Of a stretch of DNA of 64,000 bases, positions 4,901-62,250 are shown piece after piece. Source of the DNA: Morchella semilibera. Taxonomy: Eukaryota; Ascomycota; Pezizomycetes; Pezizales; Morchellaceae. Below the pieces are notes generated by a model, which ran no database searches, was not told the origin of the DNA, and saw only the letters and a program-made list of their open reading frames with translations. The DNA lies in assembly GCA_009192285.1 (NCBI GenBank), contig CM018609.1, forward strand, positions 513,282 to 577,281. Reading direction: 5' to 3'. Made by a program: the position numbers and the translations under genes. Position 1 is the stretch's first letter. Every line of letters starts with the position of its first letter.

Positions 4901-6292
4901 GTACATGTATATCTAATGGGTTTACGGAGGCGCTTTGTTAACTGAGTTACCAGTACATTAGGGATTTAGCCAAAAAAAAAAAAAAAAAAGAAGAGAAAAA
5001 AAATCACTCTTCCTAACCTTACTGAGGCTTAGTCTAGGAGGTCTATTAGAATTAAGGTTGGGGCTGGGTAGGGAGATTCTTGATACCACCCGGATCACGG
5101 GATATCACTCGTTACACAACCCGTGGGCGGAAGGTAAAATTTGGAATAGACCCCCCCCCCCCCAAAGCCCGGGTCCAATGCAAGGGGGGGGGGATTCCGT
5201 GCTTGGGGGGCCATGACATTTCTTTCGTCTAAAAGACACGTACGTACAGCCCTATAAGACGCACTTTATGTAGGGAGGCGCTTGATCGAGAACGAACATG
5301 ACGGTGTTTGGGAAGAGTAGAGGGGTTGTTACCGATCGGGGTGGGTTGATGGAAAGTATCAGGACTCAAGGTATTACCCCGATTTCCAGCTTCCGAATCG
5401 ATTGGGGAATCATCACAGTACGTCGAGCTTGACCCGCGCAAGCTCTAACCTCTTTTCCAAAGTTATCTATCCAACCAGGGACCCGGAGACCTCCCGGATA
5501 GCCGTGGCATTGAACAAATCAATTAATGAACTTAATCCAGCTATAGCATGTCGAGTGATATCCGGTGACTGAAACGCCCTCTCAAGGTCTCCAAAATGGC
5601 CACCACCAAAACAAGATTCCTACACTGAAGTACCGTTCTGGGTTGGTGTTATGTCTCTTAATTTGGGGCCCTGTTTGTAGAAGGGCGACCATCTCTCTTC
5701 GACCCCCGGGGCACAAAGTGTTTAGGCTGGGAGTTTTGGTATTGCATCCAACACTAAATACCTCAGATGGCTAACACCTAAAGACGTATTGAGATCTTAT
5801 TAGATTAGGTTAGGTGTCCTGGTTGCATGTCCCCTGGAAACAATCGCACATATCAGCACGGACACACCGTACGGAGCTCAAATTACAGGCCCGGAATGTG
5901 TCATGGTGGGATGGGGGGGGGACATGTTTTGATAAGATGTCATTTGGATGAGCTGCTTTGTACATCGCACGCAAAAGTGGGAATAGGCGCGCTCAAGGAA
6001 AAAAAAAACCAGTTCGTGAGGAAACCTATGTATGTATGTATTTATCTACATAACAGACTCGAACCATCTATCATACAAAAAACAACAACGACAAAAAACA
6101 ACATAGGGTATAAAACGAACGTAAAGTGGACAAACCCCACAGTCATAATTAATCCATAAAAAGAAAAGAAAAAAAAAAGAGGCCAAGGTCAAAGGAAACC
6201 TGCATACCCGCATACCTCCTACCCACACAACACACGAACAAAAGAAAAAGTCAAAAAAAAGGAGGGGTTAGGGCTGAGGAAGGACTACTCAA
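1953..6292. other. Gene-free spacer, G/C homopolymers and simple repeats
   Basis: No frame in this 4.3 kb shows a recognisable domain. It contains many G or C runs (about 1973, 2152, 2200, 2410, 2466, 4863, 5151, 5187, 5909), a CTGCTT repeat (about 2513-2541), an AGGACA repeat (about 2683-2712), a GGTGGTTGT-type tract (about 3391-3420) and TACATGTA at 3547, 3900 and 4902. The remainder looks like unconstrained intergenic DNA. Confidence 0.55.
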
Positions 6293-8104
6293 CTACTCAC
6301 TATCCGGCACATACTCATCCCCATCCCCATCACCCTTCACCTGCTTTTTCTTTTTAGCAGGACCACTTCCCCCAGCCCTACCGGGACTCTTCCCCCGCCC
6401 GGGGCTCTTCCCTCGGCCTGGACTCTTTCCCCTCCCATTCGCAGCCGCCGGCGGCGTCAACCCCTTCCCACCCGTCTTCTTCGGCCCCACCGGCGCACCA
6501 CTCAGATCCGGCCTCGCCGGTGCCTTTGCTCCCGGACTACCGCCCGTCTTCTTTGGCACTGCCGGTGCGGCTTGTGCCCCCGCCCCTGTGACCATGCTAC
6601 TCCTCTCCCCATAGTCCATCCACTTTTAACAACAGCATCGACAGCCTGCAGTCCCTCGCGCGACGCCTCGATGCTGAACCACTCCTTGTGCGTCTTCCCG
6701 CATGCTGAGCACTGGATTTCAGGGTTCTCAAAGTAGTCGCGGAGCTCCAGATGGATGAGGTGTTCGATTCGGTGGGAGTTGGGACCTTCTTGCCGACTTG
6801 TGCGGTGAGGTCCGTCTTTTTTCCGGGGGTGGCGCTGGCGGAGATGTGAGGGTAGAAGCGTACGAGGCTTAGGTTGTAGCCGCACTGTGTCGACCACTCA
6901 TGGAGGCGGCGTTGCACGTTGTTGGCGCGCCCAATTTTGAGGAGTACCCGCGGCTTATCGCCGGGGAGGGAGGAGATGCGTTGGAGGGCAGCGGCGGCGG
7001 CGGTGGTGCCAGGTGCACCAGGGGTACTGCTGGGGGAGAGGGGAGAGTTGGTAAGCCAGAAGATGTAGATATATCCTGCCTCGTCGTTATCGGAGAAGGG
7101 CTTAGAGAGCTCCTGCTGAAGGCGGGCCTGCGCCTTTTGTGTGAGTGTTGGGGGAATGTAGGAGAAGAATGCTAATCGGGGTTGTATACATGTCAGTATC
7201 ACATATCATTTCTAGGCAAGAGTAGCACCGAGAGACTCACGATTTGTCGTACTATTCGGGTCAAAGACCGGCGTATAGTCGTAATTACTCGCAGGGGTGC
7301 GTCCACGGGGTCCACCAGCTGCAGTAGCAGCAGCAGCGGCCTTCCCGTTCTTCGCCATCGCGCTCGAAACCTGTTTCCGGTCAGGATACATCTTAGGTAA
7401 GGGTGGTGTCGGCGGCGTAGTTTCAAACAAGACCTTTGATTCCTTCGCCTGCGTTCCCGCCGGCCTTGCATTTCCATTATTCCCCTCCACCACGCCCGCC
7501 GCCGCGGCCCTCAGCTCCGCCTCTGCCTGCTTCCTCCCTGCACTCAGCCCATACTCCACGTCGTCGTCGCTACCCCCACCGTCGCCAAAGCAACAGCACA
7601 ACAGCCTCCTCAGCAAGCTCGGCTTCTGCTTTCGCCGCCTTGGCGGCGCCGCATGGCTCCCCGGCGGACTGGGCGGCCGTGCCTGCGGCACCTCCGCCGT
7701 GTCTGCCGTCGGCGCAAATGGGTCGTCCTTCGGCTTGACCTTCTTCGTCTTTGCCGTTATTTTTGTTTTCGTGGTCGCGCCTCCGCCGGGCGCACCCACC
7801 ATCACCTCTACCTGCTCGATGAATGTGTCCATCGAGCCACGTCCAATCTGCTCGCGGCGCCGCGCGAAAGAGGCCGTGTGACGGAGGGCGACATTCTGCG
7901 ATTGGTCCTTGTGCGCTTCGCAGAAGTAAACACGGTTATTTGCAATTGTTGCGAGGATGCCAGATGTGGGTGTTGTGCTGCCGGGGGTGGTCTTGAGCGT
8001 GCGGGTGCAGGGCTTGCCGGCGTTGGTGACACCGCTGCAGGTGTCGGAGTCGGCGCGGGCAAGGACGGTGGAGAGGGATTCGGGGGTGTTGGAATGAAGG
8101 GCAT
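6293..8104 (-). pseudogene. T5orf172/GIY-YIG (DUF1766) protein, frame-disrupted
   Basis: Encodes a fungal DUF1766 (T5orf172, GIY-YIG-like) protein of the Mug113 type. Recognisable parts in order: N-terminus MPFIP then NTPESL; a Cys-containing segment (TCSGVTNAGKPC) near 7990-8050; a basic linker with a CCCFG cluster; the core GYIYIFWLT with LLKIGRANNVQRRLHEW; then HRIEHLIHLEL and CSACGKTHKEWF; then WMDYGER and a tail with GRGKSP repeats ending at 6293. One good intron (7172-7240, GTGAGT...TTAG, branch ACTGAC) joins DPNSTTN to PFFSYIPPTL. The conserved protein changes frame three times without splice sites: near 8091, 6781 and 6624. Each needs one extra base. Either this is a decaying gene or the sequence carries base-calling errors; an in-frame upstream ATG at 8300 could bypass only the first break. 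Family assignment is firm, functional status is not. Confidence 0.75.
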
Positions 8105-9640
8105 TTTGGTGGGTGGGTGGTTGTGGTGGTGGCAACCAACCCTTTTCGAAGTTTCCGATTTGTTTTGTAGAGGGGGGAAGGGGAGAGAGAGATCTGGACA
8201 GAGTAGTAAATAAAATAACAGTAGAAGAGGACAGAGAAAAAAGGAGACCTATGTAGCGGGGGGGGAAGCAGGGCAGCTCAGGCGCTATATAATATCTCAA
8301 CTACCTGTACTCTTCTAATCATTTAAAGCACAGAAAGAGAGTGGGAGAGAGCACAGACACATACCCACAGACAATTCAATCCAATCCAAGCAACTCAGAG
8401 TGCAAGTAGAGTAAGATCCACGCAGTCGAATAGACGCGCGAGTCCAGAAACATGACTCGCAACGTTTCCCATTGCTGGTCCAAGTAGAGTACATGTAGTT
8501 AGCATATAGCTTTACCCCATCTTGCCATCATGGTTGGGTCCGATGGATGCATCGACCACACAGGGATTCCTTGCCAAGCACAGCCCTCGAGTGGCTACGA
8601 TCTCTCCTCTTCGTGGCAAGACCTGACAGAAGGGGAGGGGAAAGAGAGACGGTGAGAGAGTGTGTGGTACCACGTCTCTGTAGAAACAGCTCATCGATCG
8701 ATGACAACCGTGAGAGATGCTCTCTACCTAAGCAGCTATCATGATAGCTCTTGAAACAATGCATACCCCTTTGCTCTGCTTGCCCGGGCCCTGGCATTGA
8801 CAAGTAGAATAGGGCACATAAATAGACCAAGAAGCTCTGACATTTTTTCGTTGTCAGATTAGGTAGAGTTTGTAGTTCCCTTGACTCCCATTGGATCTGC
8901 GCGAAACGGTCGGTCAGCCCAGATCAGTTCAATTCAAGTCAGATACGATATGGGCACAATCCATGGCACCGGGATCGTAAAGGGCAGAAAGGGGAAAGCA
9001 CCGCGGACCAAGCAGGTGGGAAATAAAAAAAAATTCGGAAAAAATTTTCAAAATGGCATCTATAGGACTTGAACAACGACGTCATGGCATTATGCCGCTC
9101 ACTCTGCAACACGTGCCTGAGGTTTCATGGGGGCCTGTCGTTCTGCAGGGACTCCCGCTGTAGATAGGAGTATTTAGGTAACGGTGCATTGCATGTGGGT
9201 AGAGTACCTGCTCTAGAGGTCTATGTACATGTACGTACTTGAAAAAAATAAGAAGTAGAAGAAGAAGCTCTTCGATAGAGTAGAGCCATAGGATGATGGA
9301 TGTGGTGAGGAGAAGGGGAATCACATAGACTGACTATCATTCATATTCACGGCTGATCACTCGTAACTCACCCACCCGCCCCGCCAAGCCCCGCCAAAGC
9401 CTTTTCACAATACCCTTGTCAGCCCGGCAACCTATCAGGGAATTCCGTCATAAGTTACAATGCGTATCTACGGCGCTTCAAGACAGAACCTGTCTTAGAC
9501 TCAACACCTTCAGGAAAGGACAACAGGCGACTCCTAATCGTTCGACCCCGCAATTGATCCTAGAAAACGATCCTCTCAAAGCTTGCAATCTAAAATTTAC
9601 CTGGAAAGAAAAAAAAAAATTATCGAGATAAGCTTCAGCA
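8105..9640. other. Intergenic spacer upstream of COQ8
   Basis: Lies between the divergently transcribed DUF1766 and COQ8 genes, so it should hold both promoters. TACATGTA occurs at 8490 and 9226. No open frame has family features. A poly-A stretch (about 9609-9619) sits just ahead of the COQ8 ATG. Confidence 0.5.
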
Positions 9641-16270: not shown

Positions 16271-17434
16271 TTACGGAAAGATATATGCACTATCAACAGC
16301 CCTCTCCCCTGTGCCCTGCAGCATCATCCAGACCTTTCTCCCACCCCTCTGCATAGCGACCTGATACGCTGTCCTACCCACGTTGTCCCTAGTACGGAGG
16401 TCCGCGCCGTGGCCAAGGAGCACTCTGACTACCTCCTCACTACCCCTCGAGGCAGCTAAATGCAGCGCTGTCCTCCCGTGGTGGTCCACTCCCCCTACAT
16501 CTGCCCCAGCCTCTACCAGAACCTTGACAACATTAGCCCTACCGCACTTCGCAGCTAGTTGAAGTGGTGTCCTTCCAAAGACATCCTTGGCATCTACATC
16601 CCCGCCGCGCTCCAGCAGAATCTTGATTGACGAAACACTTCCATAAACAGCGGACAAATGCATTGCTGTGCGTCCCTCCTGGTCCTCCACTTCGACATGT
16701 GCACCATTGTCTAAACACAGTTTCGTGAGTGAGCCCCCCCAGTACCTTACTGCTAGATGCAGCGGGGTACGGCCATAAATATCCTGTATATTTGTTGAAG
16801 CGCCCGCATTAATCAGGAGGCGCGCGACCTCCTGATATGGCCCAGCGAGGCAGAGCGGCGTCTCTTCGTAGACACCTTGGATATTCGGGTCTGCACCATG
16901 CTCCAAAAGCGTCTTGACCAGGTCGGTAGCACCGAGCTGGGCCGCAAAATGTAGCGGTGTCCGCCCGCCAATATCCTGTTGGGCCGTTAAAGCGCCTTTC
17001 TCCAGGAGTCTATTAACTAGCGGTGGGGCTTTAATCTTCACGGCGCGGTGGAGTGGCGTCTCATTCGTGTACTGATCGAGGAAAATAAAGTTGGCGTTGG
17101 GATCTGTCGACTCGAAGAGGACCTTGACGATATGGTCGAGAGGTTTTCCGGGGACTGGGTACACGACTTCTTGATTTGGGGGGGATACACAGGCGACGAC
17201 GACGCCCAAGGCCTTCCGGAGAATATGATGAGTGGCAAGGGGATTGTTGGTTACAACTGACCAGTAGAGGGCTATGAGGGCATGGGAATGCTGGCAGGCG
17301 ATGTCGAGAAAAACGGGAGTGAGAAGATGGTTGAGGCGTTGGTTGACGAGGAGGAGAGAGAGGAGGTCAGAAGGGGTGGTGAGAGACGAAGCGATCAGGA
17401 GGAGAAGCTCGTTAGGTAGGGCGAGGAGAGACAT
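16271..17434 (-). CDS. F-box and ankyrin repeat protein
   Basis: 387 aa. Residues 1-45 (LLALPNELLLLIASSLTTPSDL...LLLVNQRLNHLLTPVFL) match an F-box, the SKP1-binding module of SCF ubiquitin ligases. From about residue 125 there are seven or eight ankyrin repeats with the usual G-x-TPLH-x-A signature: NETPLHRAV, GGRTPLHFAAQLG, GRTPLHLAVRYW, GRTAMHLSAVYG, GRTPLQLAAKCG, GRTALHLAASRG and GRTAYQVAMQRG. This suggests a substrate-recruiting SCF subunit; the substrate cannot be inferred. The stop codon TAA is embedded in a perfect donor (CCGTAAGT). Splicing to an acceptor near 16188 (GGTGGCAG, preceded by TTTAAC) would replace the end with about ten other residues, so the C-terminus is uncertain. Confidence 0.85.
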   Translation of the reverse strand: MSLLALPNELLLLIASSLTTPSDLLSLLLVNQRLNHLLTPVFLDIACQHSHALIALYWSVVTNNPLATHHILRKALGVVVACVSPPNQEVVYPVPGKPLDHIVKVLFESTDPNANFIFLDQYTNETPLHRAVKIKAPPLVNRLLEKGALTAQQDIGGRTPLHFAAQLGATDLVKTLLEHGADPNIQGVYEETPLCLAGPYQEVARLLINAGASTNIQDIYGRTPLHLAVRYWGGSLTKLCLDNGAHVEVEDQEGRTAMHLSAVYGSVSSIKILLERGGDVDAKDVFGRTPLQLAAKCGRANVVKVLVEAGADVGGVDHHGRTALHLAASRGSEEVVRVLLGHGADLRTRDNVGRTAYQVAMQRGGRKVWMMLQGTGERAVDSAYIFP

Positions 17435-19000
17435 GTTGATGGGGGTATTTTAGATACACTTTGAGACGAAAAGTCTTTGGAGTGCATTAGTGAGATTTCA
17501 TGCAAGCAAGTAGGAGGAGGAGGAGAGAGAGGGGGGTGTTGATGCTTACCTTTACAGCGATCTTGTCTCGCTGGATGTTTGAGAGTTGATGTCAAATCAA
17601 AGTTTTGTGGGGGAAACTGTGGTATTTAAAGTACTAAAAAGGAAAAAAGAAGCATTACCTCACTCCCCCATAAACAACCGCGGTTGGTGAGGGAAAGGGG
17701 GGAAACTTTCTTTTCTTTTCTTATATTTTTTACAAGAAGGCGGGGCTCGCATCTTACGAACTAGCACTCCGCATGCATTGACTTTTTTTTTTTTTTTCTT
17801 TTCTTCTTTGCCTTGGTCGCGTTTAGCATTATTACTCTGCATTTTGCAACCCGAACCAGGGTGGAGGCTGTAGACGGTAGACCATTGCCCAACCAGCCAA
17901 TCGCAATGCTGCCGCGGCTTCTCCGACTGTCTTCGAGTGAGAATATGTGATATCGCCTTCTGGGTAAATATACTCTATATGTAACTCCATGTAACTCCTC
18001 CATGTACGTGAGTAAAATACCGTACGTACGTACGTACGTGAGAGTCAGGTCAGCTCTAAACCCGGCTGCTGTGAGGCTAAATCACGGCAGAAACGGATAC
18101 CATACAGCTAAATAAGAGGCCCAATCATTAGGTATATATGTGCTTATTATCCCGGGTCGTGATCATGTCTTATGTGAAGTGCATAGTGACTTGTGCTATA
18201 CACGTTATAGTCAATAGCTACTCCCATGTTTTAATAAATATTGAAGTAATTTGCTTGATATGCAAGCCCTGGCCAGCTAAATGGAAATTCTAAGCTATAA
18301 CTGTGATTTATACTATTTATGAATCTAGAGAAAGAGGAGAAATAAAGATGCCGAAGTAAAGAGATTCCTAACAATAATTGTGATACATGTGGGGCTCCTT
18401 GACCCAAGATATAGGTGTCAGACAGAAGTAACAGTGACAACGGAAAATGTAAGGGTAATAGCAGTGCAAGACAGTTAAGCGCTGATTAACATGAATAGAA
18501 GCAATCGGTAGAGAAAAGAAAGGAAATTCGAACTAATCTTTCCAGAATATATGACTAAAAAAAGTATGATGATAAAGAACATTACCACGGCTCAAAAGAA
18601 AGAAACGAACCACCGTGCAGGCTCTGCAATACTATCCCCCGCGCCCACAATCTCAAGTATCAAGATCCCTTTCTCTAGTTCATCCAACGATTACACGCGC
18701 AACAAACAAGTTACAACTCATATAAAGATATCTCAAGTTTCAAACCCGCTTTCAACAATCCAAAATAAAGAAGTGCACACGCATCCTGGACATGCTAAAG
18801 AAATTCAATAATAGCTCCTTTTTTAAAAAAAATAAAAAAAGAACCCCTCCTCCTCCTCCTCCCAGACCAGCAGGTGGCTTTCTTTCTTTTCATCAGGGTC
18901 ATCAAACTCGTTACAGGATAATTTAATGATCTATAAAAATCCCTGTTAGAACTAAAATCATAAATCTTGGGGCTGATGTACAACTTACAAAAGTTGTTCA
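17435..19000. other. Spacer between ankyrin gene and myosin gene
   Basis: Should contain the ankyrin gene promoter and the 3' flank of the myosin gene. A GTAC tandem repeat lies at about 18020-18040, poly-T/TTTTC tracts at about 17709-17810 and a CCT repeat at about 18846-18862. I see no gene. Confidence 0.5.
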
Positions 19001-38366: not shown

Positions 38367-39654
38367 TTAGGATACCTCGTAATCTCGTTCGCCCTCAGCA
38401 TCTGCATCACCGACGTCGCCTTGTTCGTTGCTACCCCCTGCGCCTTGGGGATCTTGTAGGCTACGTTGGTTGGGCAGTTGATACATCTGTTGATCATGAG
38501 CCAATGGAACAAAATTAGGTATTGGCAAATGGTCCCGTGCTCCAGGGTGTGAAACAAATGGGAAAGCGGGGGAAACATGGGAGGATGGTCGGTGATAGGA
38601 GGGTCTTACAGGCTGGTGTGGCATTGGTGGATATCCATACATCCCCTCTAAGCTCTCTTGGTAAATCGGATGCGGTGGATAGCTCCCCTGCTGTGGGACC
38701 CCTCCACCATAAATGTTTGGCTGATTATAACGTTCCGGATCTTGAGCCATTGCAGGATGGCCAAGATAATCTTGCCCAGCGGGAATCTGAGGCTGCTGCT
38801 GGGGGGGGACCTGTTGAGGCTGTTGTTGTTGGGGCTGCTGCTGTTGTGGGGGCTGCTGTGGAGGTTGCTGTTGATGGCTTGCACCACCTCCGGACCGTTT
38901 GGTATGCGATGCTTCCTCCCGTGGGACAATATCAATGAGGAAATCAAACATGTCGCTCTTCGCCAATGCCGACGCAATATCGGAACGTTGCAGCGTGCGG
39001 CGTTTATTCTCCTCGGCGTGGATCCAGGCGCGCATTGTGAGCTCCGTGATGAATATGTCACACCCTTTTGCAAACAGTATAGGTGCTTCTGCGGAAATCA
39101 TTTTGACCTCAGGATCTGCCTTCATGACTTTCTTTATCCTTGCCAATGGCAATTGATGAAGCTTATAGTCGTGTTCTTCATTTTCTAACTGATTTATGGT
39201 CTGTTGCCAGTACGTTGTGAGGATATCGCGGTAATGACCGTGCAAACCCTGAGAAACCTGCGAATCCATCAATATTTTGCTCAAATGTGATGGGGGGAGA
39301 AGTCGGTAATGGTGAGAAGAATGGAGTTAGAATACATTTGCGAATGCGCCGCTGTATATATCTGGAGCTGGCACTGATGAAGATGCTACGAGCGCCGCGC
39401 TGGCTCCATACTGTTGAATCCATCCCGAACCGGAAGTCAGCATTCTGCGCGCAACACATCATCCATCACCTGGGGGGTCGAGATAAAAATCCAGATGATT
39501 CTTAAAAAGGAATCGAAACGGGTTATTGTTTCAAAAGGAAAGGTAGACTGACATGGCCCATCACGGAGATGTCGTAAGGAGGGACATTGGGCTGCTGGTG
39601 TTGCGACTGCGAAGGATCGTGCCTTGAGCCCGCAGAGGGGAATTGCGGATCCAT
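38367..39654 (-). CDS. hapE: CCAAT-binding complex subunit HapE (NF-YC/HAP5)
   Basis: Histone-fold subunit of the CCAAT-binding transcription factor, acting as a heteromer with HapB/NF-YA and HapC/NF-YB. Exons 39654-39553 and 39257-38367 give 330 aa; the intron is 295 nt (GTCAGT...CGCAG), the longest but one in this window. After a short N-terminus ([20 protein letters not shown]) comes the conserved [13 protein letters not shown], then the histone fold [20 protein letters not shown] with [17 protein letters not shown] and [26 protein letters not shown] (about 70-155). The C-terminal half is Gln/Pro-rich, including an almost pure Q/P tract, and ends in an acidic segment. Divergent from FCF2 across 1.3 kb; a CCAAT box (GATTGGT on +) at 40111 could allow autoregulation, an inference. 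Confidence 0.95.
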
Positions 39655-40976: not shown

Positions 40977-42213
40977 ATGCCAACAGAAGAACCCCTTGGA
41001 CTACTACAAACAGTAGCAGGAGAAGACAAAGGGAGAAACATCCATGACGTGGTCAAGGCCTCCACCGTCTCTCTTTTCTCGCCGCCTGGTGGTGTGGTAG
41101 AAGATGATGACGCCGAATTGTCGGATGAAACCATCAACCGCCTTCTCCGCGAGGCCGAGGAAAGAATGAGAGTCTCGTCTGCACTCTCGAACTCATCCAC
41201 AGTTGTTAACAAAATCTCTATGACGAAGTATGCACATCCCTTCCTTTAATCCACACCCTTTCCCCTTCAAATTATCTTCCCCCCCCCTTGTGTGTGTGGG
41301 AGGAAGAGAGAGTGTGTGCCCCGCCATGCATTGGAATTTGGTTGTTTCCTTTAAATAAACTACTGCGGGCTGATACGTGTACCTGCACTAGATTCCCTAA
41401 GCTCGACCCTGGCTCTGCTTTGGCAAACGCACCCATCAAATCCCAGGGTTCGGTTTCTAGAATATCGGATCCTTCTATGCTGGTATCCTCATCTGATCGC
41501 GAGCTGGCGGACACCTCAGCAGCTGCAGGGGGGATTTCGCGTGTGGATCGGGCTGCATCCAAGAAGAAGGCAAAAGAGGTTTGTCACCCTTTTCTTATTT
41601 TCATTGATTTTTACTTTCACCCCTATGTTTCGGATTTGCCTATGAGGAAAATTTCCCATTTAGACCCTGAGCGAAATCAGGCCCCGTCTTGGGCGCTTGT
41701 CTTGCACACCCTGATGTCTTTTTACATCATAGTTACTCTGAGGCTCCATTCCGAAACATCTGTTTTGCTTTTGTTTTTAGTGTCCTATCGCATCTCTTCG
41801 ATGATTTTGTTGAGTGAGGACTAACAAAATGCTAGGACAAGGAAAAAACTGCCGGGGCAAATTGGTTCAATATGCCAAGGACAGATTTGACCCCACAGCT
41901 CAAGCGAGACCTACAGCTCATTAAGATGCGTAACGTTTTAGACCCGCATCGTCATTACAAAAAGGATAACTCTGCCCTTCCAGAGTACTCCCAGGTCGGA
42001 ACGATCATTGAAGGCAACACAGAATTCTTTTCCTCAAGGATCTCTAAGAAGGACAGGAAAAGGACAATTGCAGAGGAAATTATGGCTGACGAAGGGAGCC
42101 GTAAAAGGTTTAAAAAAAAGTACGAAGAAATTATAAACAGCAAAAAGAGCGGCAAGAAAGAGTTTTACAGAAACCTTTTGGCGCAAAGGGGTTCCTCAAA
42201 ATCAAAAAATTAA
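40977..42213 (+). CDS. FCF2: Pre-rRNA processing protein FCF2
   Basis: Nucleolar factor needed for early cleavages of the 18S pre-rRNA. Exons 40977-41227, 41392-41578 and 41836-42213 give 271 aa; the introns (164 and 257 nt) are longer than usual here, the second ending with CTAAC then GCTAG. The N-terminal half is variable, with an acidic stretch (VVEDDDAELSDETINRLL). The C-terminal Fcf2 domain is clear: AGANWFNMPRTDLTPQLKRD with LQLIKMRNVLDPHRHYKK, IIEGNTEFFSSRISKKDRK and RKRFKKKYEEI...KKEFYRNLLAQRG. It pairs in function with DBP10 at the other end of the window, but the two genes are not adjacent. Confidence 0.93.
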
Positions 42214-45156: not shown

Positions 45157-48100
45157 ATGTCGGGAGGAACTACTACTTCACCTATACGCTTGATAATATC
45201 TGTTGACGGGACCTGGGATACATCCGAGGGCTCTTACGATGCAATTAAGGGTACCTACTCAAACATCTAGCCAGATTGATTGATCACGATATTGTTAGCA
45301 GTTGAGTGCTAACTTTAATCCTTGGCTGTATAGGTGCTTTACGCGGTTCCGCAGACAACGTAAAGTCAATCAATGACTTGGTGAAAAATGGAACCGTTGG
45401 AGATACGTCTGGCAAGATATATGACCAGGTAGAAAACACATTTTCTATACTCGTTGGGAGGGATATATGATAAGCTAATGTAACTTAAATCTCATGACAG
45501 CGTGCACATTACTTTCAGGGAGTTGGGACAGAAGAGAGTGCTAGACCATCCAACATTGATTACCCTGGAATGCACTTGGTTGTAAGAGCAACTTCCACAT
45601 TCCAAGGGGCAACTGGGGAAGGTATCCATCAAGGAAGTCTTAAACCTCTGGGGGCATACCTAACGGATGTATAGGCTACATGGATATTCTCAAAAAGGCT
45701 TATAAGGTGAGGCATCAAATGGTATAGTTTTTAGCTGCAAATATCTGACAGAAACCAAGGTCTGCTGCTCAGAACTCAAGCAATGGGAGCAAGATGAGAT
45801 ATTCATGTTTGGATTTAGCCGTGGAGCTTGTAAGAGGAGCGCTAAGTCCTAATTTGAATGAGATAGAATCTGATAGTGGGTTTTATAGTTATTGTCCGTG
45901 CACTTTCGTCCTTCCTACAATATGTCGGTTTGATAAAGCCGGAGCATATGAAAACGGATGCGGACTTTGATACTCGGTTTTACGATCTCATCAGAAGATA
46001 TTACGAGCTCACAAAGAGGTCACAGCTCTTAGGGGAGGTGGGAGATACCTTTTGTCCGCGTCTGGTGATCATTGAATTATTTTTTCCCATTTACTGACAT
46101 GTACGCAGTCTGATCGCCCTAGAGACTTGACGTAAGTAAAATGTCGATTTTAATATTATTCCGTAAGTCTCAACTAATTTGATATAAGATCCTACTGCCA
46201 ACCGTCCCCTCGTGTCCGGTTTATCGGAGTCTTTGATACCGTCAAAGCTGTGTTTCAGCTTCCGGTTCACAATACTCTCAAAAATGGTACCCCAATCATC
46301 GACTTCGAGCAAGATGCGCCTCACCTCGTTGAGCATTTTCGGCATGCACTAGCACTCAATGAGGGGCGACCTCTTTTTAGTCCAACCCTCTGGGAATCTG
46401 ATGTGAAACAGGTTGACAGCAGTTACGAAGAGGCCTGGTTCCTAGGCTTCCATCATGATATTGGTGGTGGCTCTGATCGCCAAGGTTTAGGCTTATGGCC
46501 TTTGCAATGGATGTTGCGTGCCGCGATGGATAAAGGATTGGTACTCAACACTGATAAGGAACGATATAATGTTCTTTTCGCTGGCGAGGGGAACAACTTC
46601 AATTCAGCCCACGCCTCAGAAATGGTAATGAAAATGACAGATATGATACACCATCACAAGTCTAAAGATAGTGAGATGTTTAAACTTTATCTTAACGAAA
46701 CTAGCTGGGGGCTTTTAGATACACCTCGGAATTATCTAGAATACCTCACCAAACCACCGTACGTCAATCATGTAAAGGCTAGAGTATTTTTACACCCATC
46801 CACATATCTGGTCTTTGACATCAGCTTATCGCTTCGCATTCAACTCTATGAATGGAGGTTCTTCCGCAATTTTATCCGAGATAGGCATCTGGTAATTCCA
46901 GAGAACACACTTCCATGGTGGGAAGACCAAGCAGTGGAAAGTATTCTAAAAGAGGCTTCATCTGTTGAACATATGCGTCTTTTAATTTATGGTCGACCTT
47001 CGATTGGGAAATCCTCCCTTATTAGTAGAACATTTGGAAAGTGGGTTAAGGGGGACCCTAATGCAGCGCCTGTAGCTGGATCAGTAGTAAGAACTCATGG
47101 ACACTAAAGGCCGTATATTTGTGCTCATAGATATTAGGCTACGGAAATTGACAAATCAATTTGTCCGGACATCAGCACGCCAGTATCAATTCCAGAAAAC
47201 GATTTGGTGCGCGTGCATTACTCAGACGGCTTCGGGCCCGGCGGCAGCGACAGTTTTGAGGTCGTAGAGCGGTTCATTACTCAATACCGGGGGAAGAAAA
47301 ATCCGGAGGAAAAGCTTCATGCGATCTGGTAAGTAGACAGTCTTCATATAAGAGTTGAATCGAGCCGTTTATCTTATGGATGAATATATAGGTACTGTAT
47401 TGACTGCACCGGGAGCGAAACTAATTCTTCAGAGAAGGCATTCTTCAATTTGGGTTTTGGAGAAATTCCAGTAGTTGCCGTCTTAATGAAGGAAGAAGAG
47501 TTGAAAGCCCAAATTCGCAAAGAACTGTCTGGGAGGCGTGGAGCCGACGAGAAGCAGGTTGAGGAAAGATTCAACCAAATAATTGCGAAAAAAAAATCAG
47601 AGCTGCAAAATCTCTCCCCTCGGAGCTGGGTATCTATCGGAAGTGGTAAGTTTGTTGACCTAGGTACATGTAGCTAGGCACTCTTGGTTGAAATTAACAT
47701 CTGAAACTTGTTTTGCAGGTGTCAACACAATTAAGACACTCCTTTCGGAAACATCTCGAAACCTTACCGATACAGCTGTTCAGCTTACTCAGCTCAAGGC
47801 CCAGAGAGTTTCGGTGGAGCCCAAAGTTGCTCTGGCTACTGCCGAAAGCATACGTGCATATGCGATTTGGAAAAGGTCTAAGTTTGACGGGGAAAAGATC
47901 GACTTTCTCCGAAATGCTAAAGATGAGCCAAAGCTCTCTCGGCTCCTCATGAGGCCCGTTCTTGATAGCTTCAATATGCGCTTTTCCGGTGACGATATTC
48001 TGATTCGATCTCTACTGAGCAAATCGTGGCGGGACCTCGACAGTTATCCGGCAAACCTGTGGGATAAGGATATTCCGGGAGACCTGATTTTGATGTGCAT

Positions 48101-48458
48101 GCTTGATACCACAATTATCATGGCCCGTGCTTTCAACCATACTCAAATTCGTCAACCGTTAGGTGCGATCGCTCAACCCTTGAATACAGTTGCTCTTCAG
48201 CTTGCCTGTACATGGTATACACTTGCTACCCTTAACAAACAGAAATCGATGCACTCAAGAATCAAGTCCGTGCTCTCTGAGAAAGATTGGTCGCCAAAGG
48301 ACATTTCAATGGGGAGCTTGCAGATGAAATTGATTGAAGCTGTTGAAGAAGGGTTGGAAAGCGCCGAAACATTTTTGGAGGACATTGGAACTAGTGCACT
48401 TGACGGTGTTAAGAAGGTTGTTGGAGGAATTGGGTCTCATATTCCCATCTTTTCGTAG
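45157..48458 (+). CDS. DUF2235 hydrolase / P-loop GTPase-like fusion protein
   Basis: 888 aa in eleven exons: 45157-45250, 45334-45428, 45501-45621, 45675-45706, 45760-45829, 45889-46037, 46109-46131, 46189-47086, 47138-47328, 47392-47645 and 47719-48458. The sum of 2667 nt keeps one frame. Residues 1-~310 form a DUF2235 (T6SS Tle1-like) alpha/beta hydrolase: SVDGTWD (15-21), FGFSRGAF with nucleophile S134, FIGVFDTVKA with D211, and WFLGFHHDIGGG (279-290) with candidate H283/D285. After a helical linker comes a G-domain-like unit: Walker A GRPSIGKSS (463-471), DGFG (524-527), HAIWYCID (about 554-562) and VPV-type strand VVAVLMKEEEL (585-595), a degenerate G4. A ~250-aa helical tail ends in a glycine-containing stretch (VVGGIGSHIPIFS). 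Intron 4 uses an unusual acceptor (ACCAAG) after branch CTGAC. Function unknown; the layout recalls effector-plus-NTPase incompatibility proteins (inference). Confidence 0.85.
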
Positions 48459-48963: not shown

Positions 48964-51497
48964 TCAAACATCTTTCTTTAGATGATATGTCTTCTTGTCA
49001 GTTGAGACAGTCAACCTCTTGATACTCGACACGAGTCTCGCCTTAACCTCATCGTTTCTGACTCTCGACTTGAACTTATCTGCGATAAACTTTAATGTCA
49101 CACCCCCAGGGTTGCTTGACAAGAGGTTCTTGATTTCCTCGTCCGTGATGAACGCTATTTCAACTATTAGCGAACACCCAGCTCTAAGGTTTTTATAGTG
49201 GCCACCAATCGTTGGCCACCAAGTCAGCTAAAACTATATTTGTTGGGCACATTCCTTCCCAAAGATAGTTTAGCTGACCAAAATGGCCTAGCACCTTATG
49301 TAGCACGAGAGAAGGGGAAACATACCATCAGCTCCAGCTGGTGCAGGCGGAGCAGGGCTTCCTTGCCTACTCGCAGCTGCACTTGGTGATAATGATCGCC
49401 CCCCGGACAAAAGCTTAATTCTCTGTTTTTTGCTTCCTGGCCCGTCACTCATTTCCCCTGACTTCTCGTCTGCAGTCGCATTACCATCATTCTTACGTTT
49501 CTTTGCGGTCAATCCTGCAGGTGGAGGAGGGGATGGAGAAGGCTCAGAAGACGAAATTTGTTGGAGATTCTCGGGGGGGACCTTGAGCTTTACGATACTC
49601 TTCTTGTCTGTACCCACAGGCAATGTGCTTGTGCCTGGTTTTGGTGCTTGGCTCTTCTTCGGCTTTTTCCTCGACTCGGCCCCGGACTCGATCCCAGAAA
49701 GGTTTGGGGACCCTGAACGTTTGAGCTTCGACCCAGCGGTGGGGAGAGGGGTAGATGTACCAGGTACTTGTGCTACCTTCTTGGATGAGGCAGGCTTGGC
49801 TGTTTTCGGATCAGAAGGAGCGGCAGTGGGAGCTGGGGCAGTAGCAGTGACTGGGGCAGCGGTAGTAGTGGTAGCTTTTGCTACGGCTGCAGCCGCAGCC
49901 TTCTCGGCAGCCTTTTCAGCGACCAACTTCTCAAGTGCTTCTTTTTCAGCTGCCTCAACCTTTTTAGCTTCCTCAGCCTTTTTAGCCTCCTCTTGTTTCC
50001 GCGCTTCTTCCTCTTCGTCATCAGACTCGTCGTCCTATCACCGGGTTGGGGGTGTTAGTGACGGTATAAGGGAGAGTAAAAGTTAGGTGTCATACCGTTG
50101 AAGCATAAGGATCGGCATCAGAGTCTGTTTCATATGTGTAATTGCCCTCACGGTTCATGAGGGCCTTTTTGACCTTTTTACCATGTTTACGACGGACGGC
50201 CTCAAGCTTTTTCTTCTCTTTTTCTTCTTCCTCGTATTCACGTTCGCCACGGGCGTCAAAGAAGTTCGCAGACAGTTGTTCCTTTTTGATACGGTTCTGT
50301 AGGGGAGCAACGTTTTGAGCAACTATAATTGAGACGAAGCAAAGAGTGCATGTTTGATATTACCTCGATTTCTTTGTTTTCATGCTCCTCACCTTCCATG
50401 ATGGGAGCTTCTTCATCATCGGCAAACTGGTCATCGTCAAAGTCAAGATCATCTGCGTCCGTTTCTGCTTTCGGCAATCTATCACCCTTCCGAGTAAAAA
50501 GTTTTTTTGTGGCCCTCGCATTTTCTTCGAGAGTTCTTCGCTCTCTTTCTTTCTCTTCTGTTCGGTTCATCAACCATCTTGGTGGTTTCGCATTTTGTTT
50601 CATTACGACTTCCGCTTCTTCTGACGTCATGGTCTTGAACTTGTTCTTCTCCGTAAACTTGTACCACTTCTCAATGGGTACCATCTTAAAGGCACCATCA
50701 TCCAACACAAACATTGCAAATACTCCCTTACTAAGTGAACTCTCAAGTTGCCCAACCCACGTGTTCTTATTATCAAAATCCTCAATAAACCATGGGAAAA
50801 ATTCCTCGTAGCGTAATTTTTTCTCAGCATCGTTAGATTTGTAGACCTGTTGGGTCTTCTTCTGGAACGCGTTCTTCTTCTGCTTCTGCGCGCCACCGTA
50901 GGGCGCGATCTTTTCCAGAGCAGCGGCTTTGTCAGCATCCTTCTTGTCCTGCTCAGCCTGATTCTTCGCCTTTTCCTCATCCTCCGCAGCTTTATGGGCA
51001 GCGGCAACTGCGTTTGCCGCAGCCTCTTCCTTTGCACCCTGGAGCGGAGCTCTTGGATCTCGTCGATGGAGCTTTATTGGTCTTGTGAACTCCTGGCTGT
51101 CAAGAGGATTAACAATGCGCTTCGACTGCATGCGCATTACGTGGTAACGAAGGTCTTTCATGAGAGAGGCCTTTGTAGTTGTAAGCGGGTATTCTATCCA
51201 TTGAATCTCCTCTTCTTTTTTGACGGGAGCAGCGGCGGTAGAAGAAGACGCAGCGGAGGCAGCAGAGGCGGCGACTGAAGCGGTTGGGGCCGCCGACGTC
51301 GAGGTCGATACGTGACGGGGAGCGATGACAGTTGCTCCACCTGCTATGGCAGCGGCAGAGGGACGAATACCAGGAGCTGGCCGTGGCCGTTTTTGGCGCT
51401 GCACGAGAGGATTATCGTTTACTGGTCTTCTGCGAGCTACTGGCTTAGGAGCATCATTTGGGCCTGCAGCGACAGCAGTAGAAGCTGGAGAGGCCAT
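48964..51497 (-). CDS. TFG1: TFIIF alpha subunit (RAP74/Tfg1)
   Basis: Large subunit of RNA polymerase II general initiation factor TFIIF. Exons 51497-50364, 50296-50096, 50034-49326 and 49163-48964 give 747 aa. The N-terminal dimerisation part contains IQWIEYPLTTTKASLMKDLR and KHRR-like HRRDPRAPL, followed by a lysine/alanine-rich insert, then YEEFFPWFIEDFDNKNTWVG with LDDGAFKMVPIEKWYKF and KPPRWLMNR. The middle is highly charged and low complexity (acidic DDLDFDDDQFADDEEAP, Lys/Glu/Ala repeats). The last 66 residues (ITDEEIKNLLSSNPGGVTLK...TDKKTYHLKKDV) are the RAP74 C-terminal winged helix, which in other eukaryotes binds the FCP1 phosphatase. Intron 3 (49164-49325, 162 nt) is long because it carries a foldback repeat. 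Confidence 0.92.
49211..49290. repeat. Foldback repeat inside TFIIF alpha intron 3
   Basis: On the plus strand, GGCCACCAAGTCAGCTAAAA (within 49214-49237) is answered by its imperfect reverse complement ATAGTTTAGCTGACCAAAAT (49265-49284), with a ~25-nt loop. The core GTCAGCTAA(A)ACTAT pairs almost perfectly. The intron is about 100 nt longer than its neighbours, consistent with insertion of a tiny MITE or hairpin. Confidence 0.55.
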
Positions 51498-51844
51498 GAT
51501 GCGATGGGAGAGGCCTGCGGGAAGAGTCAGGTGCTGTCTTTGTGTAAGATGTGGGGTTAATCGTGATGTTGGTGATGTTGATGGATAGGTGAACAAACAG
51601 ATGATTGTGTCAGGACCTGGCCGAACACTGATTGAGTTGCCTGACGTGACGCCAAACAGGAATCCCTAAGCCTCCTCATGCTGGTTATGTAATAATATCG
51701 CGCCAAGTCTTTTGTATCAACCTCACTCGTCACCAGCGCGCGACCGGAACCAAATAACACCAACGGAATAACAAATAGCTCCAGTATCATTTCTACGCCT
51801 TTAAGACACTTTTTCCCCGGACAATAGAACCTCGAAATTTCACT
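51498..51844. promoter_or_regulatory. Bidirectional promoter, TFIIF alpha / V-ATPase f
   Basis: Only 347 bp separate the two divergent ATGs, so both core promoters must lie here. No single regulatory motif stands out. Confidence 0.5.
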
Positions 51845-56395: not shown

Positions 56396-57321
56396 GGTTA
56401 CCACCTCGCAACCGCAAGTTGTGCAAGTTTAATCCTCTAGCTCTCTCTATGGTAAGTACTCGCGCGTTAACTAAGGGCCCGTTCGGACAACTCAATAATC
56501 TAGATTATTTGCGATAATCAGATGGATTATCGACTTTTGGATTATCATACATGTAATAATCTAGGCTGTTCGTGCAATTGCATGAATAGCCCAACATTTG
56601 GAACCCCCGATTATATATCCCAATAATCCGCCAAGAAAATAATCACCTCTGGAGGTAAGTATGTACATGTAATTATTCACAACATAGATATCCTGAAAGC
56701 CTAATCCTATTTCAACGTTATCTGGACATGTAGATTATCCACTGATTATGATTATTATGATTATCATTTTCGCTTTTTGATAATCCAATCTGCCCAACAA
56801 CCCAACCAAATTCTTATTAAAAATTCCGGCTCTTTAATTAACGACTAATCAGTACTCGCAACTTCACAGTATTTCTAAACACAACCGCTATTACATGCCA
56901 TACAAAAAATGTAGTCTTGGCGGTCTTTTTTGTGTGTATGCAATATTACATGTAGTCGTGTTCAAAAACGCTGATAATGTAGAAAACTGCTTACCCGGAC
57001 GCTTTTAACGAATACTCACAGACCATCACTCGCTCTTGGCACCCACGTCCGCGCAACCTCTACTCAACAATGGCGCGGCAAGTCATGAAGGTGACATGCC
57101 GGTATCTCATCTGGAACAGTATTGGCCACTCCGGTCGCTTATTAACAATAAGAGCCTTAGATTCTAGCCATGTTATGACTGAGGACTAGATCTTGGCCGC
57201 ACCTTGGCTGCAAGTCTGTGATGTAGGGTATAAATGCATATGGGTACATGTATAATAGATCTATTCCACTACATGTACATGTAGGTCTTGGTGCTTTCTA
57301 CATACATGTATATACAGGTTT

Positions 57322-59063: not shown

Positions 59064-62000
59064 ATGCCCGCCCGCGCCCCCTCCCCGACCGGGAGCGAGT
59101 TCGAGTACGACATTTCCGCCGCTCTCGGCGCCGCCATTGATAGCAGCGACGACGCCGACCAGCCCTACAATCCGCGGACCCTGCACGGCGCAGCAGACAA
59201 GAGCGTCGGTGCGATTCTGGGCGAGGAGGACGATGGGGACGATGATGAGGCGTTCATCGCTGCGCAGCAGGCGGCGAGTAACCGCAAGGCGAGCAATCTG
59301 AAGGGAAAGAATACGGTGAAGAAGGGGGGGGGGTTTCAGCAGATGGGTATGTTCTTTTTTTCAGGTTTGGGGGAGGGGGAGGGGGAGGGCAAGGAAGCTA
59401 ATTGAGGGGAGCATGTAGGTCTCAATATGGGGATTTTGAAGGCGATCAGTAGGAAGGGGTTCTCAGTGCCTACGCCGATTCAAAGAAAGACGATCCCGTT
59501 GATACTGGAGGGGCAGGATATTGTCGGGATGGCGAGGACGGGGTCTGGAAAGACTGCGGCGTTCGTCATTCCTATGATTGAGAAGTTAAAGACGCATAGC
59601 GTCAAGGTGTGTATATATTCTTGCAGTTCCACTCAATTCTACAGATATACCCGCGCGTTAATCAAGTCCTGAGAAATGGTGATGTTGTGCAACTCAAAGA
59701 CCACAACCCCGACACCATAATACATTATAGAGAAAACTACAATAAAGATGGAGGCAATTGTATCCTGGCTAGATATTATTTATTAAGCTCGCATCATCTC
59801 TATAGTGGGTTTGGTAGTCTTTGCGTTGCGTTGTGTTGAGTAGTGCTGGCCTGGGTGTCATTTCTCAAGACTTAATTAACGTGCGAGTATATATTTATAT
59901 TTATATATATGTGGTATACTAAACTACCCAGGTCGGCGCACGAGCGATAATCCTCTCACCATCCCGTGAATTGGCCCTACAAACACTCAAAGTCGTCAAG
60001 GAACTCTCCCGCGGCACCGACCTAAAGGCCTGTCTCCTCGTCGGAGGTGACAGTCTCGAGGACCAGTTCGGCTTCATGGCCTCCAACCCGGACATTGTGA
60101 TAGCCACCCCTGGTCGTTTCCTCCACTTGAAGGTTGAGATGGAGCTCGATCTCAGGTCTGTCCAGTACATTGTCTTTGACGAAGCCGATCGCCTCTTCGA
60201 GATGGGGTTCTCCGCACAGCTCACCGAGATCCTACATGCACTCCCGTCAAACCGCCAGACACTCCTCTTCTCCGCAACACTCCCCAAGAGTCTCGTCGAG
60301 TTCACAAAAGCCGGTCTCCAGGAGCCTACGCTGGTGCGCCTCGACGCCGACTCTAAGATATCGCAGGATCTTGAGTCTGCGTTCTTCACTGTCAAGTCTT
60401 CGGAGAAGGAGGGTGCTCTCCTCCACCTGATTCAAGACGTCATCAAGATCCCGCAAGGCCCAGTTGCCGCGCCCCCACCTGCCTCCGGCGCAAACTCAAA
60501 GAAGCGGAAACGGCCCGAGGGCACCTCCTCCCACGAGGCGGCTTCCCCGCACTCAACAATCATCTTTGCAGCCACCAAGCACCACGTCGAGTACCTTTCC
60601 CACCTCATCTCAACCTCCGGATACCCCGTCTCATACGTCTACGGCACCCTCGACCAGACAGCTCGTCGAAACCAGGTCGCGCGCTTCCGCGCCGGGGAGA
60701 CGAGCATTCTTGTTGTTACGGATGTCGCAGCCAGAGGTATCGATATCCCCCTGCTATCAAACGTCATCAATTACGACTTTCCCCCACAGCCAAAGGTCTA
60801 CATCCATCGTGTTGGGCGAACAGCCCGTGCCGGTAAGAAGGGATGGGCCTACTCCCTCGTCCGCGGTGAAGACGCCCCCTACCTCCTTGACCTGCAGCTC
60901 TTCCTCGGGAAGAAGCTCGTCCTCGGCCGCGACAGCGAACACAGATCCAAGGCCGACTTTGACTACACCGCCGACGTTGTCACCGGCGGCCTCGTCCGCG
61001 ACAGCGTAGAGCGCTGCATGGAGCACGTCAACAAGCTCCTCTCGGAAGACAGCGAGCTCGCCTCGCTCCGCGGCGTCATGGTGAAGGGCGAGAAGCTCTA
61101 CCAGAAGACGAAGATTGCTGCCTCCACCGAGAGCGTCAAGCGCGCCAAAGATACCATCGCGCAGAAGGGCTGGAGCGCCGCGCACCCGCTGTTTAGCGAC
61201 GATGTTGCAGACGCGGAGGTGGAGCGCGCGAAGATGCTGGCCCGCGTGGCAAACTTCCGCCCCAGCGAGACGATCTTTGAGATTGGGCAGCGCGGGCTGA
61301 ACCGCAGCGAGGCGGCGAACGTAATGCGTAGCAGGAGAGAGAAGATCAAGATTGATCCGACCAAAAAGCGGGGCGCAATGGAGGATACGGCGGCGGCCGA
61401 GGAGCAGGACAGCGACGATGAGATGGAGGAAATGAACTTTGAGGGGGATGCAGACAGTGATGTTGATGGCGCCGACGAGGACGTAGACATGGATGCGGCC
61501 AGCGACGGAGAGCTCGAGGCGACATTCAAGAAGCCGACAAGGCCGAGTAAGAATACGGGGGCGAAGACGGCGACAAAGAAGAAGAAGCCACACAGCTGGG
61601 AGGACAAGGAGCACTTCATGTCCTACGCCCCCACCTCCTCACTCGCCGAAGAGCGCGGCTACTCCGTCACGGGGGGGACCTTCGCCGAGGCTGCCCGCGG
61701 CGCCACATTCGACCTCACGAACGACGATGGCGGCAAGGGCTTTGCAGAGGCGCACAAAGCAAAGGGCATGCGCTGGGACAAGAAGGCCAAGAAGTTTGTC
61801 CAGCGGGCCAACGACGAGGACGGTTCCAAGGGCGCCAAAATGATCATTGGCGAGTCCGGGCAGAAGATCGCCGCGTCGTTCCAGTCGGGCCGCTTCGCGA
61901 GATGGAAGAGCGCCCACAAGGTCGGGCGGATACCAAGGGTTGGGGAGAACGAGGTGCCGGGTGCTAGCGCCAACGGGTTTGGTGCGCCGGGAGCGACTGG

Positions 62001-62250
62001 CGGTGGGGGGGTGGGCGGTAGACGTGGGGGAAGACAGTTCCATAAGGGTGTCAAGGCGCCGAAGCCGGCGGATAAGGCGAGGGATGACTATGAAGTTAGG
62101 AAGAAGAGATATTCGGAGGCGAAGGAGAAGGGTCTAGTGAAGGAGTCGGTGAAGAGTGAGTTGAAGAGTAGGGAGCAGATCAGGAAGGACCTGAAGTTGA
62201 AACAGAGGAGGAGAGAAAAGAATGCAAGGCCTCAGAGGAAGAGGAATTAG
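59064..62250 (+). CDS. DBP10: ATP-dependent RNA helicase DBP10 (DDX54)
   Basis: DEAD-box helicase needed for 60S ribosomal subunit assembly in the nucleolus. Exons 59064-59346, 59419-59606 and 59932-62250 give 929 aa. Helicase motifs in order: Q motif region [14 protein letters not shown] (108-121), motif I ARTGSGKT (133-140), [18 protein letters not shown] at 240-243, SAT at 271-273, then [10 protein letters not shown] and [10 protein letters not shown] (449-458). A charged insert ([11 protein letters not shown]) lies between the two RecA-like lobes. The C-terminal third carries the DBP10 extension: an acidic block ([14 protein letters not shown]...), the conserved [19 protein letters not shown] segment, and a lysine/arginine-rich end. 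Intron 2 (325 nt) is the longest in this window and splits helicase motif I from Ia. All motifs are intact. Confidence 0.95.

Follow-up and report, generated by a model that had tools for sequence, protein, structure and literature searches.

We analysed a stretch of 64,000 nucleotides (nt) from Morchella semilibera (assembly GCA_009192285.1, contig CM018609.1, positions 513,282 to 577,281 of the forward strand), hereafter the window, which lies on the contig labelled C7 in our numbering. It carries a gene that almost certainly encodes a single protein in which a lipase domain like that of the bacterial effector Tle1 (family DUF2235) is followed by a linker, a G-domain-like region and a tail. 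After in-silico removal of ten introns of 51-83 nt, all ten bounded by GT-AG, a frame of 888 amino acids (aa) runs uninterrupted from the ATG at 45157 to the stop codon at 48456-48458, which bore out the eleven exons and the intact frame put forward in an initial annotation of this DNA. The features of the gene are as follows.

45157..48458, forward strand: whole gene, 11 exons, 888 aa; supported by its GT-AG introns, its open frame and the introns in common with a paralog on contig C17.
45157-45250, 45334-45428, 45501-45621, 45675-45706, 45760-45829, 45889-46037, forward strand: exons 1-6, by splicing.
46109-46131, 46189-47086, 47138-47328, 47392-47645, 47719-48458, forward strand: exons 7-11, by splicing.
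45187..46519, forward strand: alpha/beta-hydrolase domain of the Tle1-like (DUF2235) kind, residues 11-305, split by introns; by PF09994 and a four-copy profile.
45811..45825, forward strand: nucleophile elbow GFSRG, residues 132-136 (Ser134), invariant in four of four copies and aligned to the GFSRG of the Tle1 type.
46226..46243, forward strand: GVFDTV, residues 208-213 (Asp211), with the Asp invariant in four of four copies; aligned to G[IL]FDTV of 9j3f and 6sjl.
46451..46471, forward strand: HHDIGGG, residues 283-289 (His283), with His and GGG invariant in four of four copies; aligned to HSD[IV]GGG of Tle1-type structures.
46520..46975, forward strand: linker, residues 306-457, conserved within the fused pair and found in it alone; by identity with the paralog, and not found at the loci on C14, C2 and C19.
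46976..47638, forward strand: G-domain-like region, probably degenerate, residues ~458-640, split by introns; 37 of 37 PDB matches are GTPases or septins, and MMR_HSR1 is below its cut-off in both paralogs.
46991..47014, forward strand: P-loop (G1) GRPSIGKS, residues 463-470, with GRPGVGKL in the paralog; by motif scan and paralog alignment.
47219..47230, forward strand: G3 position, residues 522-525, YSDG rather than DxxG and the same in the paralog; by alignment to DTPG of septin-9.
47486..47497, forward strand: G4 position, residues 590-593, MKEE (KNED in the paralog) rather than [NTA]KxD; by alignment to AKAD of septin-9.
47719..48455, forward strand: tail, residues 643-888, with a C-terminus that is mildly amphipathic here and rich in glycine repeats in the paralog.

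One Pfam family exceeded its cut-off on the 888-aa protein, namely PF09994, the catalytic domain of Tle1-like effectors of the type VI secretion system (T6SS), which matched residues 11-305 at E=4.5e-53 with 180.9 bits against a cut-off of 27 and covered model positions 2-286 of 287; AAA_16 (0.022), MMR_HSR1 (0.041) and HOOK (0.12) stayed below theirs. The motifs DGT (residues 17-19), GFSRG (132-136), GVFDTV (208-213) and HHDIGGG (283-289) were all located, so that the complete DUF2235 motif set claimed earlier was confirmed, and GRPSIGKS followed at residues 463-470.

The genome searched comprises 56.8 Mb in 23 contigs and contains DUF2235 matches at no fewer than five loci, the 888-aa gene on C7 and others on C17, C14, C2 and C19. 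The C17 paralog keeps the order lipase, linker, G domain and tail; splice-aware alignment paired it with residues 9-879 of the window gene, with 418 of 823 positions identical (51%). Six of the ten introns have the same position and phase in both genes (31.33, 63, 103.33, 137.33, 194.67 and 642.33), two keep their phase but are shifted beside alignment gaps (187 by one codon, 494 by about four), two have no counterpart (114 and 557.67), and the model of the paralog contains one additional, doubtful intron. In each of the four regions, lipase, linker, G region and tail, the two genes differ at 0.16-0.33 of second codon positions and at 0.63-0.70 of third positions, which is the pattern that protein-coding constraint leaves. 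The linkers are 57% identical over 131 aligned residues of 306-455.

These comparisons bear on the possibility that the gene model wrongly fuses two adjacent genes. Splicing was done from sequence alone, without RNA-seq, and this leaves room for such an error; however, the paralog has the same order over both halves with six introns of the same position and phase, the substitutions are of the coding type over all regions, and exon 8 (898 nt) by itself spans the lipase, the linker and the start of the P-loop. On these grounds we dropped a chimeric gene model as barely credible, and the earlier proposal of two domains in one fungal protein was upheld by the domain order and common introns of the paralog.

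Linker, G domain and tail were not found at the C14, C2 and C19 loci, where these parts of the protein scored 43, 48 and 43 (five shuffles per locus gave 34-41, 34-42 and 37-45, respectively), as against 1163 at C17. Those three loci are 34-38% identical to the fused gene in the aligned lipase stretch, and the two among them that were aligned, C14 and C19, have the same catalytic residues. When the genome was searched at the protein level with the G region and tail, only C7 and C17 were returned, besides a stretch at C4:808146-808607 (E=0.123, to about residues 606-755) that we took as a chance match. With the G-plus-tail profile no relative was obtained from viral contigs (106 pattern matches, none confirmed) or genome contigs (52 pattern matches, none confirmed), and a PADLOC search gave no matches at E up to 1.

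Comparison of the window with C17:1-49500 showed the fused gene to be the only gene in common at the thresholds used; beyond it the comparison gave a 42-base repeat, a repeat match of 35 aa at window 56841-56945, and shadows of the fused gene on the antisense strand. Because the flanks share no other gene, we rejected the idea that the C7 and C17 copies are alleles or idiomorphs of one site. The short stretch at window 56841-56947 resembles repeats of C17, with 42 bases matching at 88% and a protein match of 35 aa at another place on C17, and may be a dispersed element. In the one assembly searched, the window gene is single-copy at C7, and no counterpart of it turned up on duplicate contigs. 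Three pairs of contigs (C9/C10, C12/C13 and C21/C22) gave the same matches at nearly equal offsets, and part of the assembly thus seems to consist of two haplotypes or duplicated contigs.

The lipase domain was further characterised with an alignment of four DUF2235 copies (C7, C17, C14 and C19), which C19 enters only from residue 126 and from which C2 was omitted because of a stop in its rough model. Ser134, Asp211 and His283 are invariant in all four copies. The corresponding profile gave six matches in PDB at E up to 10, led by 9j3f (1.6e-11), 6sjl (5.4e-11) and 4o5p (1.6e-8) and followed by an alpha/beta hydrolase (0.0064) and two weak matches (0.61 and 1.8). Of these, 9j3f is the only one named Tle1 in the result table, and we take 6sjl and 4o5p to be Tle1-type proteins as well. 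GFSRG and HxDxGGG stood in register in all three, and FDTV did so in 9j3f and 6sjl. The Ser, Asp and His of GxSxG, GxxDTV and HxDxGGG presumably form the catalytic triad of Tle1, and the N-terminal domain is, by this alignment, a Tle1-like hydrolase that retains every residue of the catalytic type and for which phospholipase activity is predicted. The GxSxG serine of a bacterial Tle1 was mutated in published work (PMC7245790).

For residues ~458-640, a profile of the two paralogs (194 columns) matched 37 PDB entries at E up to 10 (best E=0.0022). Each of the 37 is named as a GTPase, GTP-binding protein, Rab-like protein or septin, including EngA/Der, Era, RAD, Rab-like 3, YlqF, TrmE, EngB and septins with CDC10; the matches ran mostly through the P-loop. 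When the tail was included, 30 of 32 matches were of GTPase type (best E=0.07), the other two being Nup58 and Hook-3. NCBIfam matches were weak and far under their cut-offs, the best (0.00061, to GTPase Der) belonging to the paralog. In profile-profile comparison the region reached a probability of 94% when aligned over 82 columns to a set of five loci from one GTPase family of the same genome (picked by a DIPG motif from 30 retrieved loci, two of the five being on duplicate contigs). Five EngA/Obg-like loci, left after the removal of a sixth that contained a stop, gave 91% over 30 columns, and one NACHT-type P-loop gave 77% over 16. Myosin, a DEAD helicase and each of the ten comparisons that involved lipase and tail gave less than 2%. 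Because of the PDB-profile and profile-profile results we read residues 458-640 as a predicted P-loop NTPase with GTPase affinities, whose clade and register past the P-loop are loosely fixed. The initial annotation had named the fold of residues 455-640 as a test of its claim; an AlphaFold prediction for the in-frame read-through 46892-47644, with two introns retained and stops read by table 27, had a mean predicted local distance difference test (pLDDT) score of 38.1, too low to inform on the fold. Two patterns of a fungal G-domain family, HDSxGFE and HAIW[FY]C, had no matches in this genome, in a scan that overlooks any motif divided by an intron, which is the case for HAIW/Y in the window gene.

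The state of the nucleotide-binding motifs differs between them and between the paralogs. The Walker A GKS of the initial annotation is present in the window gene, where GRPSIGKS fits GxxxxGK[ST], and the Ser/Thr is lost in the GRPGVGKL of the paralog. By the weak septin-9 alignment, whose register extends over ~150 residues with little likeness beyond the P-loop, both paralogs have Tyr in place of the Asp of G3 (YSDG), and neither MKEE nor KNED conforms to [NT]KxD at G4. The DxxG motif that had been claimed does not mark G3 by this alignment, as both such strings near the G domain, DGFG at 524 and DCTG at 562, lie outside its G3 register. Gating by GTP hydrolysis is unlikely on account of these motif states, and we consider it probable that the region is degenerate, possibly a pseudo-GTPase, rather than a GTP-hydrolysing gate; nucleotide binding by the window copy is possible. 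What stood of the proposed GTPase-like domain is thus a C-terminal, P-loop-bearing G-like domain in the same order in the paralog, and what found no support is a working GTPase switch. As judged from these motifs, the lipase motifs appear to have been kept while the GTPase motifs decayed.

No Pfam family matched residues 644-888 at E up to 5. A model of the exon-11 tail was all-helical but of low confidence (mean pLDDT 38.1), and the last tail windows have hydrophobic moments of 0.39-0.49, outside the six highest windows of the protein (maximum 0.65). The C-terminus of the C17 paralog contains glycine-rich repeats with weak gly-zipper matches. There are hints in these features that the tail may contact membranes. 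None of the five most hydrophobic windows of the protein is N-terminal, and for this reason the fused protein is presumably cytosolic.

The surroundings of the two copies differ. Among ten chosen open reading frames (ORFs) of the window typed with Pfam, the nearest recognised upstream gene is FCF2 (41836-42210), 2.9 kb away; a TFIIF-alpha-like ORF (50259-51665, 24.8 bits against a cut-off of 27.1, just under it) lies 1.8 kb downstream, and a histone-fold protein (38370-39326) and a DBP10-type helicase (59923-62247) were typed further off. The assertion that the locus does not sit among conserved neighbours is contradicted by the first two. Elsewhere in the window, a 392-aa ORF on the reverse strand (16274-17449) joins an F-box-like N-terminus, just under its cut-off, to ankyrin repeats. 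The C17 paralog is 35 kb away from the telomere repeats at the start of its contig, and nearer that contig end than the paralog are an NPHP3_N/NACHT ORF (8277-9449, reverse strand) and a copia-like retroelement ORF (3373-7068, forward strand). At least 125 NPHP3_N match rows occur in the genome (counted exon by exon, duplicate contigs included, with 150 of 206 candidates scored), and in view of this number the NPHP3_N/NACHT neighbour is weak evidence. Together with FCF2 and the short introns, this large NPHP3_N complement fits a fungal source of the DNA. The DUF2235 locus on C2 (4564632-4565597, reverse strand) lies ~2.2 kb from a divergent, NLR-like NPHP3_N match (C2:4567775-4568245, forward strand), a pairing that may be due to chance since NPHP3_N copies are so many. 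The telomere repeat itself has an apparent 10-base unit, TAACCCTAAC (TTAGTTAGGG), rather than plain TTAGGG; at least five copies of it were present in 12 of 20 contig-start stretches read (L063, L066-L074, L077 and L081 listed), and C7 has telomere-type repeats at both ends (end stretch L085).

Among known systems, the T6SS effector Tle1 shares the whole catalytic domain (PF09994) with the fused protein, with GFSRG, FDTV and HxD[IV]GGG in register with 9j3f and 6sjl and GFSRG and HxDxGGG in register with 4o5p. The 888-aa protein matched 80 plasmid records, in none of which a single place spanned 80% of the query; the ten listed of these 80 stop at or before residue 384, and in none of these ten bacterial matches do the linker, G-like domain and tail occur. 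In contrast to bacterial Tle1, the gene is eukaryotic and intron-bearing, and as it also sits between the FCF2 and TFIIF-alpha-like genes, we rejected a T6SS effector in the strict sense. Septins and EngA/Der, which we take to belong to the TRAFAC class of GTPases, share with the fused protein the P-loop and the septin-9 register described above, but differ in the Asp of G3, in G4 and in nearly everything past the P-loop.

Fungal NLRs with lipase effectors (SesB-like, patatin) resemble this protein in concept, a lipase being coupled to a P-loop NTPase. Pfam found no NACHT or NB-ARC in it (at E up to 1 over its full length and up to 5 over the G-domain and tail pieces) and no C-terminal WD40, ANK or TPR repeats in the tail at E up to 5; with AAA_16 under its cut-off, membership in the fungal NLRs was rejected. 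The 19 Pfam seed profiles for N-terminal domains given in the available text of a fungal NLR survey do not include DUF2235 (PMC9815663). Fungal copies of this domain are treated in a phyletic survey, which places it in most fungal lineages of ascomycetes and basidiomycetes and reports it to predate their split (PMC3482391), and in two lists of genes changing under attack or infection, where DUF2235 is among the domains up-regulated in Armillaria ostoyae attacked by Trichoderma (PMC10269595) and one Botrytis DUF2235 gene varies with the host (PMC7824268). A DUF2235-GTPase fusion was named in no title or abstract opening of the literature surveyed, which covered full texts by term only and few subscription journals.

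The reading we put first, at somewhat under an even chance, is that of a cytosolic Tle1-type phospholipase controlled by a degenerate G-like domain, possibly with a membrane-seeking tail, and most likely used in defence or cell death. The lipase would cut phospholipids of the cell's own membranes or of those of an ingester, while the G-like domain, rather than a classic hydrolysing switch, would be an autoinhibitory or oligomerising module, either nucleotide-sensing or purely structural. The tail would carry the protein to membranes. There is a precedent for silencing of a lipase by contact in the Tle1 of enteroaggregative Escherichia coli, which is kept inactive by its VgrG partner (PMC10433429). 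That the protein serves defence or regulated cell death is the weakest step, and we hold it tentatively, as somewhat more doubtful than the reading as a whole; the NPHP3_N/NACHT ORF in the subtelomere of the paralog and the up-regulation of DUF2235 in attacked Armillaria lend it weak, indirect support.

Several observations weigh against this reading. The GKS of the window gene is intact, and its neighbours are conserved genes. Pfam matches to a GTPase family (MMR_HSR1) are under the cut-off for both paralogs, and the single 888-aa sequence found no GTPase in PDB, only Hook-3 (0.037, residues 595-678), Aca2 (0.072) and the type VI protein 6sjl (0.51). Removal of the P-loop segment from the G profile left one PDB match, a septin at E=1.5, so that support for the fold past the P-loop comes from weak alignments. 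The EngA-type and NACHT alignments span only 30 and 16 columns, and the 82-column alignment sets DIPG near residue 512 rather than on YSDG, in conflict with the septin register. The fused family is represented by two sequences only, and the scores at C14 (43 against at most 41) and C2 (48 against at most 42) slightly exceed those of their shuffles, through single stretches of 29 and 20 residues. Lastly, the C17 copy cannot be called intact, since its junction at 3217-3262 of stretch L026 can be read only with a 46-nt intron whose donor is poor or with a shift of frame, and it is possibly damaged; the 888-aa window gene has no junction problem of this kind. The intron or frame problem lies within L026 3083-3262, and the paralog may be a decaying copy.

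Other explanations were weighed on the same evidence. The protein could instead be a housekeeping or stress enzyme of lipid remodelling, in which a DUF2235 domain acquired early in fungi serves ordinary lipid turnover and the fused part is a platform for membrane recruitment. The position of the gene between FCF2 and the TFIIF-alpha-like gene and the wide fungal distribution of the domain (PMC3482391) are in keeping with this; however, the C17 copy lies in a subtelomere and identity within the pair has fallen to 51%, which would be less usual for housekeeping genes, and we find this explanation unlikely, if still the most serious of the competitors. In an improbable alternative, the one proposed in the initial annotation, the G domain binds and hydrolyses GTP and thereby switches on a membrane-attacking lipase in immunity or incompatibility. 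The intact GxxxxGKS of the window gene and the GTPase-biased profile matches speak for such an executioner, as does the abundance of NPHP3_N match rows, by which NTPase-bearing receptors are common in this genome; the replacement of the G3 Asp by Tyr and the off-consensus G4 in both paralogs, together with a paralog P-loop that lacks its Ser/Thr, speak against it.

Still less probable is a stored cytoplasmic lipase toxin against fungus-eating animals, comparable to CLT1 and CLT2 of Coprinopsis, which the G-like domain and tail would silence in the producer. The absence of an N-terminal stretch among the most hydrophobic windows agrees with this, as do the cytoplasmic mushroom lipases of Coprinopsis, which are nematotoxic (PMC10512399) and resemble the role proposed here in being cytoplasmic fungal lipases in defence. 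However, CLT1 is reported to have a Ser-Asp dyad and CLT2 a His-Cys site, and "DUF" is absent from the main text of that paper (PMC10512399).

We return to the reading put first. DUF2235 phospholipases have been studied chiefly as toxins that bacteria inject, and a lipase fused to a decayed GTPase-like domain offers a handle on the question of whether fungi tame a membrane-cutting enzyme by a tethered regulatory domain, for defence or cell death. A more far-reaching speculation, which we consider rather unlikely, is that this gene and its subtelomeric paralog belong to a group of lipase executioners outside the NLRs, domesticated from a bacterial toxin, in which a pseudo-GTPase, with its catalytic Asp lost and its P-loop either kept or eroding, would hold a Tle1-type phospholipase inactive and free it at membranes on cue. 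Should tethered regulation prove true, the fusion would be a further lipase-plus-NTPase design, distinct from those of the NLR family.

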